Source: Eutreptiella sp. 'Long Island Sound 2002'
Lineage: Eukaryota > Euglenozoa > Euglenophyceae > Eutreptiales > Eutreptiaceae
Assembly (NCBI GenBank): GCA_964036045.1
Contig: OZ038380.1
Coordinates: 13,227,629-13,291,628 of the forward strand
DNA length: 64,000 nt
Direction of reading: 5' to 3'
Positions 14,059-63,269 of the stretch are shown here, in pieces (position 1 is the first letter of the stretch; every line of letters begins with the position of its first letter). Under the pieces are notes generated by a model, which worked only from the letters and a program-made list of their open reading frames with translations, searched no databases and had not been told where the DNA came from. The translations under genes were made by a program, and so were the position numbers.

Positions 14059-17000
14059 CTAATTATCCATGAGAGTCCTTTCTGGAGTCAACTCCAACGC
14101 CCTCTGCCGGGTGATGATGCTAGAGCAGACGATACGATCCCCCTCCTCCCAATCTGTGAAATCCAAGACGGTCACACCGCACTCAGTGTCGGCCCCGACT
14201 TCCTTGACGACGTCCTTCATGCGGCGGAGCTCTTCCAAGTGTCCACTGTACACCACCTTCTTCTTGCGGAGGACCTCGATCCAGGCAGGGGCCACCAGAC
14301 GGCCCTCAGTCACCAGACATCCAGCAGCCTTCTTGCCATCCTTAGCGCCAAACACAGCCTTGACCTCCGCCTCACCAGAAAACTCCCGCACCTGCTCATC
14401 CCCGAGCCGACCCTCCATGACCTTCTTCACCTCATCCACCAGGTCATAGATCACATCAAACTTCATGCATTCAATGGAGAGCTCCTTCATAAGCGCAGCT
14501 GCAGCAGGGAATGTACCCACATTGAAGCCCAAAATGCAGCTTTCTGTTGAGGATGCAAGGTTGACGTCAGACCTGCTGATGTCCCCAGGGGTGGCCATGA
14601 TGAACCGCAGCTCGATCTTCTCCTGCGGCAGAGCAGAAAGAGCAGCCTTGATGGCCTCACAGGACCCGGACACATCAGTCTTGAGGATGATATTCATGAC
14701 CTGGATTTCTTTTCCATCAGCAGAAGCCTCTGACCGGACAAGATCTCTGGCCCCAAGCTCAGCCCAGCTCTTCTCCTTCTTGACCTGCATCTGCTCATCC
14801 GCCTTCTGCTTGGCCTCTTTCTCAGACTCGAATACCTCAAAGCGGTCCCCGGCGGTGGGCACTTCATTCAGCCCCAGGAACTGCACCGGGAAAGATGGGG
14901 TGCCGTACTCCACATTCTCACCGAGGTCACTGGTCATGGAGCGCACCCGACCCCAGGCACCGTTGCACACAATGATGTCACCTACAGCAAGGGTACCGTT
15001 CTGCACCAGCACGGTAGCAACAGCCCCCTTGTTGCGGTCCAAGTGGGCCTCGACGACCGTTCCGGTTGCACCCGCCTGGGGATTGGCCTTGAGCTCTGCC
15101 ACTTCTGCGGTGAGCAGGATCATCTCCAGAAGGTCCTCAATGCCATCTCCCTTCTTGGCACTGATGGGCACCATGGGCGTGTCTCCGCCCCACTCCTCGC
15201 TCACCAGGCCATACTCCGCAAGCTCGCCCTTGATCTTCTCGATGTTGGCCCCTTCCTTGTCAATCTTGTTGATGCCCACAATGATGGGCACGTTGGCCGC
15301 CTGGCAATGGGCAATCGCCTCCCGGGTCTGGGGGCGCACCCCGTCATCCGCCGCCACCACGATGATGGTGAAGTCTGTCACGGTGGCCCCTCGGGCCCGC
15401 ATCGCAGTGAAGGCCTCATGCCCGGGGGTGTCGATGAAGGTGATGTAGTAGGGGTCCTCCTCATCCTCCGAGTTGGGCACGAGCACGGAGTACGCACCGA
15501 TGCCCTGCGTGATACCGCTGGCCTCGCCACTGGCGACGTTCGACTTGCGGATGTAGTCCAACAACGACGTCTTCCCGTGATCGACGTGGCCCATGATGGT
15601 CACGACCGGGGGCCGCCACTCCAGGTCCTCCTCGTCCTCATCGTACACGTAGCGGTCGTCGGCGGACGCGATCCCGTCAGCGCCCTCGTCAGCTTCGAGG
15701 ATCTCCACTTCGTAGTCGTCGCACACCATCTTGACCATATCAACGCCGATCACTTGGGTTGGGGTGGTCATGATCCCCTGCTTGAAGAGCACCGTCACCA
15801 CGTCTCCGACGGTGATGGCCAGCCGGTCCGCAAGCTCCGTGACCGTCATCCCCTCGGCGCTCACCTCGATGATCTCCTCCTTTTCCTTCGCCATGGCCTT
15901 GCGCTCCTCCGCGCGCTTCTCCTTCCGCTCCGCGCGGCTCTTCTTGCGGCTCTTGATCAGCATCGCGTCGCGCTGCCGGTCCTCCTCGTCCCTCCGGTAC
16001 CTGCCACGCCCTCTCTTGCCCTTGCCCTTGCCCTCGTCCTTCGAGGGGGCATCGGCACCGTAGTTGCGGGTGGGCGACGTCCTCGTGGAGCTCTGAGCGC
16101 CTTCCTCCGATTTGCCCTTGCCCTTGCCCTTGCCCTTGCCCTTGCCCTTGCCCTTGCCCTTGCCCCTGCCCTTGCCCTTGCCTCCATAGGGCCGGCCACG
16201 GCCGTCCCCGCCCTCAGGGGGCGTGAGCGGCTTCGAGCGGTCCGGAATCTCATCCAGATTGATCACAGGCTTTGGGCGGGCCGCGGGCGTGGGCGCGGGC
16301 CGCACAGGCCGCGCCAACTGGACCGGGGCAGCAGGGGCTTCAGGCTGCGCGGCAGCTGCCGTCTCTTCCTTCTGTGGCGGCTGCGCGGCTTGCTCAGGGG
16401 CCGGCTTTGCCTCCGCGGCCTCCGCCGGCTTGGAAGGCATTGGGGGCAACACAGAGCTGGGCCTTGCAACCTGGGGCTTCTGCTCGCTGGGCTTGGACGC
16501 CAGGTCGGGCTTGGCAAACGTCGGCTGGAAAGGGGCCTTAGGGGCTGCCGCGGGTTCTGGCTTCGCAGCAGCTTCCGCGGGCTTCGGCGGGGCTGCAGGT
16601 GCGGGGGCGGGCTTGGGGACCTCCGGGGCCTGTGCGGGCGGGGGGCGCATCGGCCGGACCAGAGTCAAGCCCGGGGGCTCGGGCTTGGCCGCCGACTCCG
16701 GCGCTGGGGGCGCTGGGGGTGGCGTGGGCCGTGCTGGGGCTGGTGTGGGAGGGGCAGCCGCCTCAGGGGGGCTGACGGGGGTGGGGGGCTGTGGAGGCTC
16801 GGGGGCTGTGGCTGGGGCGCGTGTCGGCCTCATGAGGGTGGCGCCCGGGGGCTCGGGCTTGGCGGCCGCTTGCGGAGGAGCCGCTGGCTTCTCAGCGGCG
16901 ATCTCGGCGGGTTTTGCAGGCGGTTCGGGGGCCGGGGGCGGGGCGGGCTTCGGGGGTGTGGCAGCGGGGGCCGCAGGCGCCGCATTGAAGCTGAAGCTGA

Positions 17001-17724
17001 CCTCACTGGCGGGCTTGGGGGCCTCGGGGGCGGGGGGCGCTTCAGGGGCCTTCGACGCGCCATCGGTCACAAGAACATCCAGTTTGGACTCCGGCTCAGG
17101 CGGCTTGTAGACGGGACGGGTTAGCTTGGGAGGCGGCTTCAGGATCGGGGGTTCGGCATCAGTGGCGGTCTCGGTGGCTGTCTCCCCCGCTGCCTCCCCC
17201 GACGTCACCAACATGTGGTAGGCAACCTGGGGTTCGGGGCGGCTGCTGCCCCGTGCCAACAGGTAGCCAACAGCCGAGGCGAAGGCCGCAGCGGACAGCA
17301 ACCAGAGAGACCAGAGGTTTGAATTGTTGGGCGCAGTCACGGGGTAGCCAGTCACAGTGTGGACCTCGCCAGAACCCCGGTGGTCCGGTGCAGGCCCTGC
17401 GAGGGTGGCATATTGGTCAGGTCGTTGGGAGGCCGCCAACACAGTGCCCCGCTGCGGGGCCCTGATGGCGTTCATGGCGGTGGCCCCGTGGACTCCCGCC
17501 TTGGTCTGGTAGGTAGCAGGCAGTTGGGCTTGCAATGCAGTGGTGGGCTCCCAGCTTTGGCTTCTCATCGCGATCAACACCGCAATGGAGGATGCCACGA
17601 CCCCAAGTCCCACGTAGGCCACCCAAGGCCGCACATTCCCCGTGGGTTCGCTGCCACCGACAGGCACAAAATTGGTGCCATAGGCGCCTGGAGCTTGATG
17701 GTTCATGGGATAAAAATTAGACAT
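14059..17724 (-). CDS. infB: translation initiation factor IF-2, plastid type
   Basis: GTPase that places initiator tRNA on the small ribosomal subunit of bacterial-type ribosomes; the sequence is closest to chloroplast IF-2. One uninterrupted reading frame of 1221 residues. Order: hydrophobic helix 33-52; Ser/Thr/Ala-rich stretch 53-135; second helix about 137-157; long Pro/Ala-rich linker 190-500; Lys-Gly tandem repeat 516-538; basic region 565-615; IF-2 N domain 623-675; GTPase domain with G1 GHVDHGKT (712-719), switch I GITQGIGAY, G3 DTPGHE (765-770), G4 NKID (819-822) and G5 SAK (855-857); then domains II, III (about 1005-1100) and IV to the stop. The core matches land-plant chloroplast IF-2 closely. 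The helix-TP-helix leader suggests import through membranes in two steps, or tethering; this is inference. Absence of introns is notable here. The 693-codon frame on the opposite strand is a GC-rich shadow. Confidence 0.95.
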   Translation of the reverse strand: MSNFYPMNHQAPGAYGTNFVPVGGSEPTGNVRPWVAYVGLGVVASSIAVLIAMRSQSWEPTTALQAQLPATYQTKAGVHGATAMNAIRAPQRGTVLAASQRPDQYATLAGPAPDHRGSGEVHTVTGYPVTAPNNSNLWSLWLLSAAAFASAVGYLLARGSSRPEPQVAYHMLVTSGEAAGETATETATDAEPPILKPPPKLTRPVYKPPEPESKLDVLVTDGASKAPEAPPAPEAPKPASEVSFSFNAAPAAPAATPPKPAPPPAPEPPAKPAEIAAEKPAAPPQAAAKPEPPGATLMRPTRAPATAPEPPQPPTPVSPPEAAAPPTPAPARPTPPPAPPAPESAAKPEPPGLTLVRPMRPPPAQAPEVPKPAPAPAAPPKPAEAAAKPEPAAAPKAPFQPTFAKPDLASKPSEQKPQVARPSSVLPPMPSKPAEAAEAKPAPEQAAQPPQKEETAAAAQPEAPAAPVQLARPVRPAPTPAARPKPVINLDEIPDRSKPLTPPEGGDGRGRPYGGKGKGRGKGKGKGKGKGKGKGKGKSEEGAQSSTRTSPTRNYGADAPSKDEGKGKGKRGRGRYRRDEEDRQRDAMLIKSRKKSRAERKEKRAEERKAMAKEKEEIIEVSAEGMTVTELADRLAITVGDVVTVLFKQGIMTTPTQVIGVDMVKMVCDDYEVEILEADEGADGIASADDRYVYDEDEEDLEWRPPVVTIMGHVDHGKTSLLDYIRKSNVASGEASGITQGIGAYSVLVPNSEDEEDPYYITFIDTPGHEAFTAMRARGATVTDFTIIVVAADDGVRPQTREAIAHCQAANVPIIVGINKIDKEGANIEKIKGELAEYGLVSEEWGGDTPMVPISAKKGDGIEDLLEMILLTAEVAELKANPQAGATGTVVEAHLDRNKGAVATVLVQNGTLAVGDIIVCNGAWGRVRSMTSDLGENVEYGTPSFPVQFLGLNEVPTAGDRFEVFESEKEAKQKADEQMQVKKEKSWAELGARDLVRSEASADGKEIQVMNIILKTDVSGSCEAIKAALSALPQEKIELRFIMATPGDISRSDVNLASSTESCILGFNVGTFPAAAALMKELSIECMKFDVIYDLVDEVKKVMEGRLGDEQVREFSGEAEVKAVFGAKDGKKAAGCLVTEGRLVAPAWIEVLRKKKVVYSGHLEELRRMKDVVKEVGADTECGVTVLDFTDWEEGDRIVCSSIITRQRALELTPERTLMDN
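16111..16179 (-). repeat. in-frame (Lys-Gly)n coding repeat in IF-2
   Basis: A hexanucleotide repeat (GGCAAG on the coding strand) encodes alternating Lys and Gly over about 23 residues between the Pro/Ala linker and the N domain. It may bind RNA, or may simply be replication-slippage expansion. Confidence 0.85.
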
Positions 17725-41985: not shown

Positions 41986-44900
41986 CTATAAAACCACTCG
42001 TGGCAAACAAGCAGCGGGTCGTTGCAACATGGGCTGTAGCATGGCACGCAGCAGCATCGACAAAACCTCGCACTCGGCGCGTCTGTACTTCTCCTTTCCT
42101 CGGATCAGCTCCTGCCGCTTCATCGCTGCCCGCAGCCGGACCCACATGACGTTGTCCTTCTTCTGCCGCTTCTCCTTCTTGAACTTGCGCTTGCGCTTCT
42201 TGTCCTTGGAGTCCACACTTGGTGCAGTGGGCGCAGGCTCCGGTGCAGGAGTCGATGGGGCATGGCTGGCTGCAGATGGGGCTTCAGATGCAGAGGCCTC
42301 GCAGGGGCTGGCCGTATCTGGATGGAGAGGGCAGCACGTGCACAGTGAGCCCGTTGACCGAATAGCCGCTTCGGGTACGTGCATCCGCACCTCTGTTGCC
42401 CTGGCTCCCTCATACCTGGGTGACTGCTGCTCGAGGTAGGCTCAGGTGTGAGCTTACTTTTCGCTTTGCTGTCGGCTGCAGGGGGCTTGCCGGTTGCGGG
42501 GCCCTTCTTGTCCTGCATAAGAACGGCACATCCGCTTCAATTTTGTGGGCACAATAATGACCCTTCCCCCCGCCCCCCCAAGCCACCGACCACATATGTC
42601 GGTCGCACATATATCAGCCCACATATCTCTGGGGGGCATTGACAATTGCGCCAACTCGGTGGGTTTTCGGGGGTCGGTGCCATTGTTGCCTCATTTGTGT
42701 CCGCTGAGTGTCCCGTAGGGGGGAGATATGTGGGGTATATTTGGAAAGCCCTTGAAAAGGGCTATTCAGGTTTGCATGCTGTACTGACGATATGTTCGAC
42801 ATTTTCGTCCGTTTTGGACGATGCCTGTGTTGCTTGCTGCCTCCTTTTGTCAACAGGCAGTTACCATGTCTTCATACAAATTCACACCCCGCGCTGTTGC
42901 ATCCCCAGAGGCACCACAAAAACCCTTGGTTCGGAAAAGGGCACGCTCTGGCGGGGCAAGCTGGGTGCGCGTTACTCATTGCACTTCCCAGCAATGCAAA
43001 AAAGCCTTGTACAGCCGGTTCGCAGCAACCTGCATGCACCCACGAGGAACGTCAGATTCTGTCCACCGCAGAGGCCGCTTCTTTTGCAAGTCAATTTTGG
43101 GATCGTAAAGTGCACCCCACGAAGGCTTCCCAGCATGAGTTTCTGGCCACGCGCATTGACGTTGATTTGGAGAAAAATGTCAAGCGTGCACAGTGGCACA
43201 AATACACTAGAAAGAGGGGTCATTAGACAACGTATTTTGTACTGTACCGTGGAGCACGTTGATAAATCTGCAAAACACAGTTTTTGCATCACTTCAGTTT
43301 TTCAAGCCCTGGGGTCCGATTCCCCGATCGCGCTGAGCACATGGTGCTGGATTACAGTAAAGCACTGAATGTATTGAAATTGCCTGTTGGTGAAAACCTC
43401 AGAGTTGAAAGTGCACCGTTTGGTTCTGCACCACACAACTCTGGGGGTCAACACTGTAATGGTTTGGCCAGAGTACCTTCCCCCCCCCATGTCCATCCCC
43501 CCCCAAGGGACGACGGTTCCCCCCCACCCCGGGGGGAACCGTCACCAAGTGACGGTTCCCCCCTGGGGGGGGGGGGAACCGTACACCACTCCTGACCAGC
43601 CAATTCTAGTATCACCCAACCAAAAATTTTCTTCAGCGCCTTTGGCGCCTGTGATTTCCTATTGATTTCTTATTGTTCATGGGCCAAGTGACGGTTCCCC
43701 CCCTGGGGGGGGGGATGGACACGGGGGGGGGATGGACATGGGGGGGGGAAGGTATGTGGCTGGTAAGGGCTTTAACGAGACGGCCTCTGCCCTGATTGGG
43801 GAGCTGTACAGGTGCTCCAACGGGGCAGGGCACCTATTTATTCATACCGATGGCTGTTGCTCAGAATTTTTGAACTGGGCATTCTGTAATCTGTATGACA
43901 AATTGGTGCAGTGGCGCTGGTTTCATCGCATTACGCGGTGTGTCTTCATTAAAGGACACTCGTACAATCTGTGCGATGCAGCGTCACGCGCCATGGACCG
44001 TGCTCTGCACAATGTTGATTATTATTGTGGCCTCACTGACATGGCTGGCCTGACGATCCAGCATGTTGTACGAAACAAACAACGGTTTGTACGGAAGCTG
44101 CGCATCTTGAAGCGCAGTGATTTTTGCGATGTCCAGATGGCTTGCAGGTGCCACCAGCAGGCCCCTGTTTTGATTAGAGATGCCAAAATAAAATGGCTGG
44201 ATTGGTATGACTCCTGATGCTCAGAACCTGCAGCCCCATCCTGGCTTTATCTGGGTGAAGTCTGGGTACAGTGAGCCCATTGCATGGCGCAAGGTCCGGC
44301 TGATGAAACAGCGAAATGTGGACCTGACGACTGATGGCCTCTGGGCCATGCCGCTCAACACAGGGTGCGTGCCTGTGAAGGCACGCAGGCTGCAGGACTG
44401 GCAAAAATTGAAGCAATACGTTCCCATTCACAAGCACGGCAATGTCTGCCCCAATGGAGTCCCAGCACTTGTGGAAGGGAACTACAAATTTGGACAACTC
44501 AGATTCGGAATAATCAGCGGTCCCCTGTGCACTGCGCCGTCCTGTGTATCGACAAGTTTCCAGCCGTTTGCTCAAAAATATGGTCACTTGCCCCCCCCCC
44601 TAACCTATACGTTTCTGAAACGGCCTTTTCTCACAGATTTCAAAAAGTATACACATACCCCCCCCAAGGGAACGATATTTTGGCGCATCAGACGAAAAAG
44701 TCAAAAACTCCGGGAAAAATGCCAAAACCCACCGGGTTGGCACACAATGAATGTCCCCGAGAGATATGTGCACACATGCGGCACGCACAGTGCTGTGACA
44801 CAGACAAGAACGCACGGACCCTGCACGCATGCATATCACACAGCCCAGCAGATGTCAGCACAAGTCCCGGCAGTTGCTGGCAGGGGTCAAGAATGGTGTC

Positions 44901-63145: not shown

Positions 63146-63269
63146 AATGTTGCGATAACAACTCCCCATTCAAAAGTATGGTTCACAAAAGGAACAACTG
63201 GCCATGTTCAATGCCTCTTGTTCCTTTTGTGAACCATACTTTTGAATGGGGAGTTGTTATTGCAACATT
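63146..63269. repeat. 52-bp hairpin, miRNA-precursor-like or MITE
   Basis: Left arm 63146-63197 and right arm 63218-63269 pair over all 52 positions, with a single G-U wobble, around a 20-base loop. Arms contain CCCCATTCAAAAGTATGG and TTCACAAAAGGAACAA. Transcribed from either strand it would give a long perfect stem. Confidence 0.9.

Follow-up and report, generated by a model that had tools for sequence, protein, structure and literature searches.

Is the inverted-repeat element that interrupts a transposon-derived reading frame at this locus removed as an intron, or does it owe its intron-like borders to the way in which it was inserted? The element lies in the window, i.e., the whole stretch of 64,000 nucleotides analysed here. 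A first-pass annotation had described positions 43473..43751 as a terminal inverted repeat (TIR) element that is spliced like an intron, with algal introners as the model. We analysed the structure of the element, its host, its relatives in the same genome, its target sites, and the intron rules of the lineage to which the genome appears to belong.

Results

Structure of the element

The body of the element comprises 277 bp (CCTTCC...GGAAGG; 43476..43752), as delimited by its inverted ends and many genomic matches. A TA target duplication flanks it on the left (43474..43475) and on the right (43753..43754), and empty sites hold a single TA. With the TA included, the left TIR (43474..43504, plus strand) and the right TIR (43724..43754, minus strand) are complementary at 31 of 31 positions. 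The TA flanks, the CCTTCCCC/GGGGAAGG ends, the GT at 43473-43474, and the AG at 43750-43751 are all present as annotated. The inverted ends are thus real; the repeat, however, is longer than reported (31 nt with TA), and the annotated span is that of a hypothetical intron and not of the element body.

This hypothetical intron (43473-43751, 279 nt), read from the sequence alone, would use as donor a GT formed by the host G and the T of the TA (43473..43474, plus strand) and as acceptor an AG within the right end of the element (43750..43751, plus strand). Exact removal of 279 bp can begin at any of four positions (43473-43476) with an identical product, and a GT...AG border arises only from 43473. 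The 279-nt segment folds with -185 kcal/mol (z -9.85), and none of 200 shuffles was equally stable. A repeat scan and the fold revealed an internal palindrome, ACGGTTCCCCCC...GGGGGGAACCGT, at 43513..43582, and the scan also detected an extra copy of the GTGACGGTTCCCCCC module 5' of the right end (43688..43715). No match was obtained in an Rfam search at gathering scores, and a tRNA search found no tRNA.

We also scanned the window for TA-flanked exact inverted repeats of at least 10 nt, 50-3000 bp apart. Five rows were returned (two are nested repeats of a single element), and the ends described above occurred in one only. A further TA-flanked element, at 63158-63257, measures 100 bp and has inverted repeats of 40 nt without mismatch.

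The host is a transposon relic

Judged by sequence comparison, the host is a TIR transposon that appears to encode a DUF7869-like protein, and the window copy has decayed to a relic with deletions and frame shifts. Its left TIR (42620..42667, plus strand) and right TIR (44724..44770, minus strand) align with each other at 41 of 46 identical paired positions, with 3 gap columns, and relatives have similar ends. Three remnants of the open reading frame, all on the plus strand, were located relative to the 713-codon relative L062: residues 1-172 in two frames (42788..43304, by tblastn), residues 389-452 with a frame change near 43395 (43296..43475), and, 3' of the element, residues 451-702 (43753..44476), a remnant that has lost sequence near 44131-44165 and shifts frame near 44203. 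Residues 173-388 (216 codons) are missing, and three frame shifts were located, near 43000, 43395, and 44203.

The assignment to PF25273 (DUF7869) is weak for the window piece (E 9.4e-4, 19.3 bits, below the gathering score); P0002 reached 26.5 bits against a cut-off of 26, and a full-length relative remained below it at 20.7 bits. The AlphaFold model of the DUF7869 protein was too poor for use (pLDDT 43), and a literature search for DUF7869 found no paper.

The genome yielded 2392 candidate relatives of the host; scoring of 130 gave 135 matches, of which the 30 best were fetched. Open frames of 688-713 codons are present in 7 of these 30. The end motif of the window copy was found on both sides, at a minimum of 16 of 21 bases, in 7 of 31 relatives (the 30 best and L079). 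The host family (L049-L079) has ATATCTCTCGGGGAC-type ends, and the best matches to the end motif lie 2560-2608 bp apart in 14 of the 31. The family itself probably generates a 2-bp target duplication, either AT or TA, which are not separable by eye. In L062, L074, and L079, a subfamily-variable stretch precedes FAHFQAKL, and in L079 its DNA ends in TTTTCAGG; judging from its sequence, the host transposon gene may here contain a conventional intron that is in frame.

Empty sites and the timing of insertion

As the first-pass annotation had stated, the element interrupts a frame that belongs to another transposon, and its exact removal restores WPEYVAGKG locally. The continuity of WPEY and VAGKG that it had predicted for relatives was also borne out. 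The insertion point is ungapped at the DNA level in 29 of the 30 genomic relatives (at least 42 of 60 bases ungapped across the point, both strands scanned), and the remaining one, L075, stops short of the site. An uninterrupted EYVAGKG is present in 14 of 61 protein database hits, which include the window protein and many that do not cover the segment.

The two pairs of terminal repeats differ in divergence: the inserted element has 0 mismatches in 29 positions and the host has 5 in 46 (P = 0.036 if equally old, on the assumption that both pairs were perfect at the start and with few sites). The lower divergence of the inner repeats suggests that the element entered a host copy that was probably already decayed. 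An ordinary insertion followed only later by the host lesions is a variant that does not exclude the mechanism favoured below; the flanks join seamlessly in the host frame and the age test is based on few sites, both in its favour, but the difference in mismatches makes this order of events unlikely.

A high-copy family with TA duplications

We searched the 2.28 Gb assembly (2205 contigs) for further copies. The search yielded 2137 first-look candidates, and all 40 that were scored, including the window copy, matched at 94-100% over at least about 263 of 279 positions. The 39 further copies with flanks served as the target-site sample; they are the best-scoring copies and not a random draw. 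TA was found at both borders in 33 of the 39 by script, and inspection by eye added another three (L013, L026, L042), as the first-pass annotation had anticipated. Two copies, L032 and L043, have TG flanks in place of TA, and the right border of L033 is ambiguous. Among the 33 parsed copies, 25 have CCTTC/AGG ends and 8 have others. Variant ends are of the CCATCC type in L015, L019, L029, L031, and L033, and CCCCGCC in L041, L047, and L048.

When one frame of the element was used as a protein query, three copies were returned (P0062-P0064), the edges of which are compatible with TA flanks where tested (both in P0064 and P0062, the left one in P0063); a search with another frame gave no matches. 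Viral contigs contained no relative, and none of 10 pattern matches in genome contigs was confirmed as a relative, in collections that possibly omit records of the source genome. The viral pattern match L001 was rejected, being a lone 18 bp in a GC-rich contig with nothing further similar across the 600 bases read. Among the papers listed in literature searches on introners and euglenids and on MITEs and Euglena, the family is not named in any title or abstract opening shown.

The element thus combines terminal inverted repeats, a target duplication with empty sites, and a multi-copy, dispersed family of uniform length. These properties identify it, with high probability, as a MITE, i.e., a nonautonomous TIR transposon, from a family with many copies. 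The TA duplication is presumably that of a Tc1/mariner-like target. The first-pass annotation had considered it unusual for a transposon to gain an intron from another transposon; the nesting of one transposon in another is ordinary.

Target preference and the GT...AG borders

The base 5' of the TA was G in 18, T in 7, C in 6, and A in 5 of the 36 copies read (G excess, p 0.004), and the base 3' of it was C in 20, A in 5, T in 5, and G in 4 of 34 (C excess, p 2e-4). The expected frequencies, 27% and 28%, respectively, were taken from 1878 TA sites in the window. The G excess is possibly inflated, since the query started with that G, whereas it did not extend to the C. In the 33 copies read on both sides, G-TA-C occurred in 11, G only in 6, C only in 9, and neither in 7 (Fisher p 0.73). 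G and C are therefore not mutually exclusive, which fits a symmetric target preference; selection for splicing of the sense strand would tend towards alternatives. Of the 8 variant-end copies, 5 have C 3' of the TA and 3 have G 5' of it, and an exact GT...AG is possible in only one. These counts suggest that the preference is not limited to spliceable copies, although the copies are only 8.

Exact GT...AG borders are available on the plus strand in 15 of the 33 parsed copies, on the minus strand in 15, on either strand in 21, and on both in 9; 12 copies have none. In simulations, the chance of such borders per strand was 27% for these ends at plain TA sites, and 0.9% of random TIR ends with a TA duplication offered exact splicing on one strand. 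The geometry is explained by the GTAC target preference of the family together with its common AGG end. We consider it very likely that the intron-like appearance arises as a by-product of the target chosen and the sequence of the ends, and splicing of the window copy is not needed. The placement of the terminal AGG, correct for exact splicing as in 0.9% of random ends, counts against this explanation. A transposon with a GTAC preference and an AGG end will often yield GT...AG borders with exact restoration, and caution is required in reading such borders as introns.

Copies in open frames elsewhere

A second copy splits an open DUF7869 frame on contig C6 (L019/L079). This host is nearly full length, with 360 open codons on the 5' side and 346 on the 3' side (88% and 97% identity to L074). 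The copy lies at a TT-TA-CG site and has variant ends (CCATCC/GGTGG), and its exact removal would involve neither GT nor AG. It shows that the family enters such frames regardless of splicing; given its variant ends, it bears on the family overall rather than on the AAGG form, and is a weaker control. Two copies were thus seen in DUF7869 frames: the window copy, whose host is broken, and this one, which offers neither dinucleotide.

Open frames spanning the empty sites had a median of 152 codons, compared with 135 in controls (n 34 vs 99, p 0.02, with non-independent controls). We count this slight excess against the by-product explanation. Ten of the 34 spanning frames (33 copies and the window) were scanned against Pfam, and nine, including the L019 frame, had no match. 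The tenth, L047 (C11:56936583-56936850), matched a ubiquitin-conjugating enzyme (UQ_con, E 7.4e-24), with the MITE upstream of the matched part.

Euglenid signatures in the window

The window encodes an IF-2 protein on the minus strand (14059-17724) in 1221 codons without an intron, in which IF-2 domains were found. Positions 17733-17708, overlapping the start of this frame, match the Euglena spliced leader (query from PMC6242988) at 22 of 26 bases; the best other site reached 18 of 26 and the best of five shuffles 16 of 26. The segment 14059-17733 has the appearance of a retrogene that retains a relic of the leader, and no poly-A tract was seen in the downstream bases read. Two hydrophobic N-terminal stretches, identified by reading, suggest that the protein is of the plastid type. 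The Euglena telomere repeat is TTAGGG, and the window contains 11 TTAGGG repeat matches (at most one mismatch) versus 0.19 expected. The genome is, on these signatures, very probably euglenid nuclear, and its source is probably Euglena gracilis or a close relative. The leader relic and the TTAGGG repeats led us to reject a dinoflagellate origin, which had been considered at first. The comparison with Micromonas, Aureococcus, and dinoflagellates in the first-pass annotation hence concerns other lineages.

Discussion

Our analysis favours a mechanism in which a transposase, which would be encoded elsewhere, moves the MITE into TA, preferably within GTAC, duplicating the TA; the duplication and the preference are based on the 39-copy sample. 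The window MITE would have landed in a DUF7869 transposon relic that, from the divergence of the repeats, was probably already decayed. Frequent GTAC targets and the common AGG end would then cause insertions to mimic a GT...AG intron in 15 of 33 cases per strand, with removal restoring the target exactly. As the host copy has suffered deletions and frame shifts, nothing would select for splicing.

The intron rules of Euglena gracilis provide a further comparison. Conventional introns of this species start with GTGTG and have a C-rich tract 5' of CAG (PMC11170887). The window element has the donor GTACC (2 of 5 positions of GTGTG), 3 pyrimidines in 16 positions at -20..-5, and AAG at the acceptor; owing to the symmetry of the TIRs, its C-run falls at the donor end on both strands. 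Nonconventional introns have CCAGG at +3..+7, CCTG at -9..-6, and paired ends, with a pairing energy of -10 to -2 kcal/mol in most cases (PMC11170887). CCAGG and CCTG are absent at the four equivalent positions of the MITE. Its ends do pair, as those of nonconventional introns do, at -11.2 to -19.7 kcal/mol, and this very stable pairing, typical of such introns, is a point against the mechanism proposed above.

A GTAC target combined with CCTTCC/GGAAGG ends produces a GT...AG intron in either reading direction, as in 9 of 33 parsed copies. Copies of the family, with their paired ends, might accordingly be facultative introners in both orientations, and RNA from transcribed genes might lose some of them; we regard this as quite unlikely. 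If true, it would represent a living step from a MITE to a euglenid intron. The corresponding reading of the window copy, namely insertion into an exon and spliceosomal removal via the GT from host G and TA and the AG of its own end, agrees with its exact GT...AG, with such borders in 21 of 33 copies when either strand is allowed, and with published TIR introners in which the element supplies the 3' site and the duplication the 5' site (PMC9860276). It is nonetheless very unlikely, since the donor and pyrimidine rules of E. gracilis (PMC11170887) are violated, the host copy is broken, the copy at L019/L079 splits a frame of the same family without GT or AG, albeit with variant ends, and the single Pfam match among the ten frames scanned has the MITE upstream of the matched stretch. 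The proposal of the first-pass annotation that the element is spliced like an intron is accordingly not upheld: target preference and terminal AGG explain the appearance. A nonconventional intron or its progenitor, with paired ends and removal by a possibly spliceosome-independent route, is most improbable given the missing CCAGG and CCTG and the broken host, even though the ends pair more strongly than the published range (PMC11170887) and such introns have been suggested to derive from MITEs (PMC6221363, PMC4770533).

Returning to the MITE as a transposon with GTAC preference, its family, with up to about two thousand candidates, offers a natural experiment on the MITE origin of euglenid nonconventional introns. 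It shares with TA-duplicating MITEs and TIR transposons short length, TIRs, a 2-bp TA duplication, and high copy number, but differs from such MITEs in its G/C-run ends, internal palindromes, and preference for GTAC instead of plain TA. Introners with TIRs and target duplications, e.g., those of Symbiodinium microadriaticum (PMC9860276), recruit their splice sites in the same geometry and likewise allow exact restoration; those are annotated introns assessed by RNA-seq, whereas the present element is described from its sequence, with a 2-bp TA, a broken host, and another lineage. The introner elements of Amoebophrya (PMC7789003) likewise have inverted repeats that pair the ends and direct repeats at the borders; in contrast to our MITE, they are RNA-supported, mostly non-GT-AG, and found in dinoflagellates. 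Finally, the nonconventional introns of Euglena (PMC11170887, PMC6221363, PMC4770533) share with the MITE the apparent lineage, pairing ends, and a proposed MITE origin, but carry the CCAGG/CCTG motif that the MITE lacks and are spliced, which for the MITE is hypothetical.
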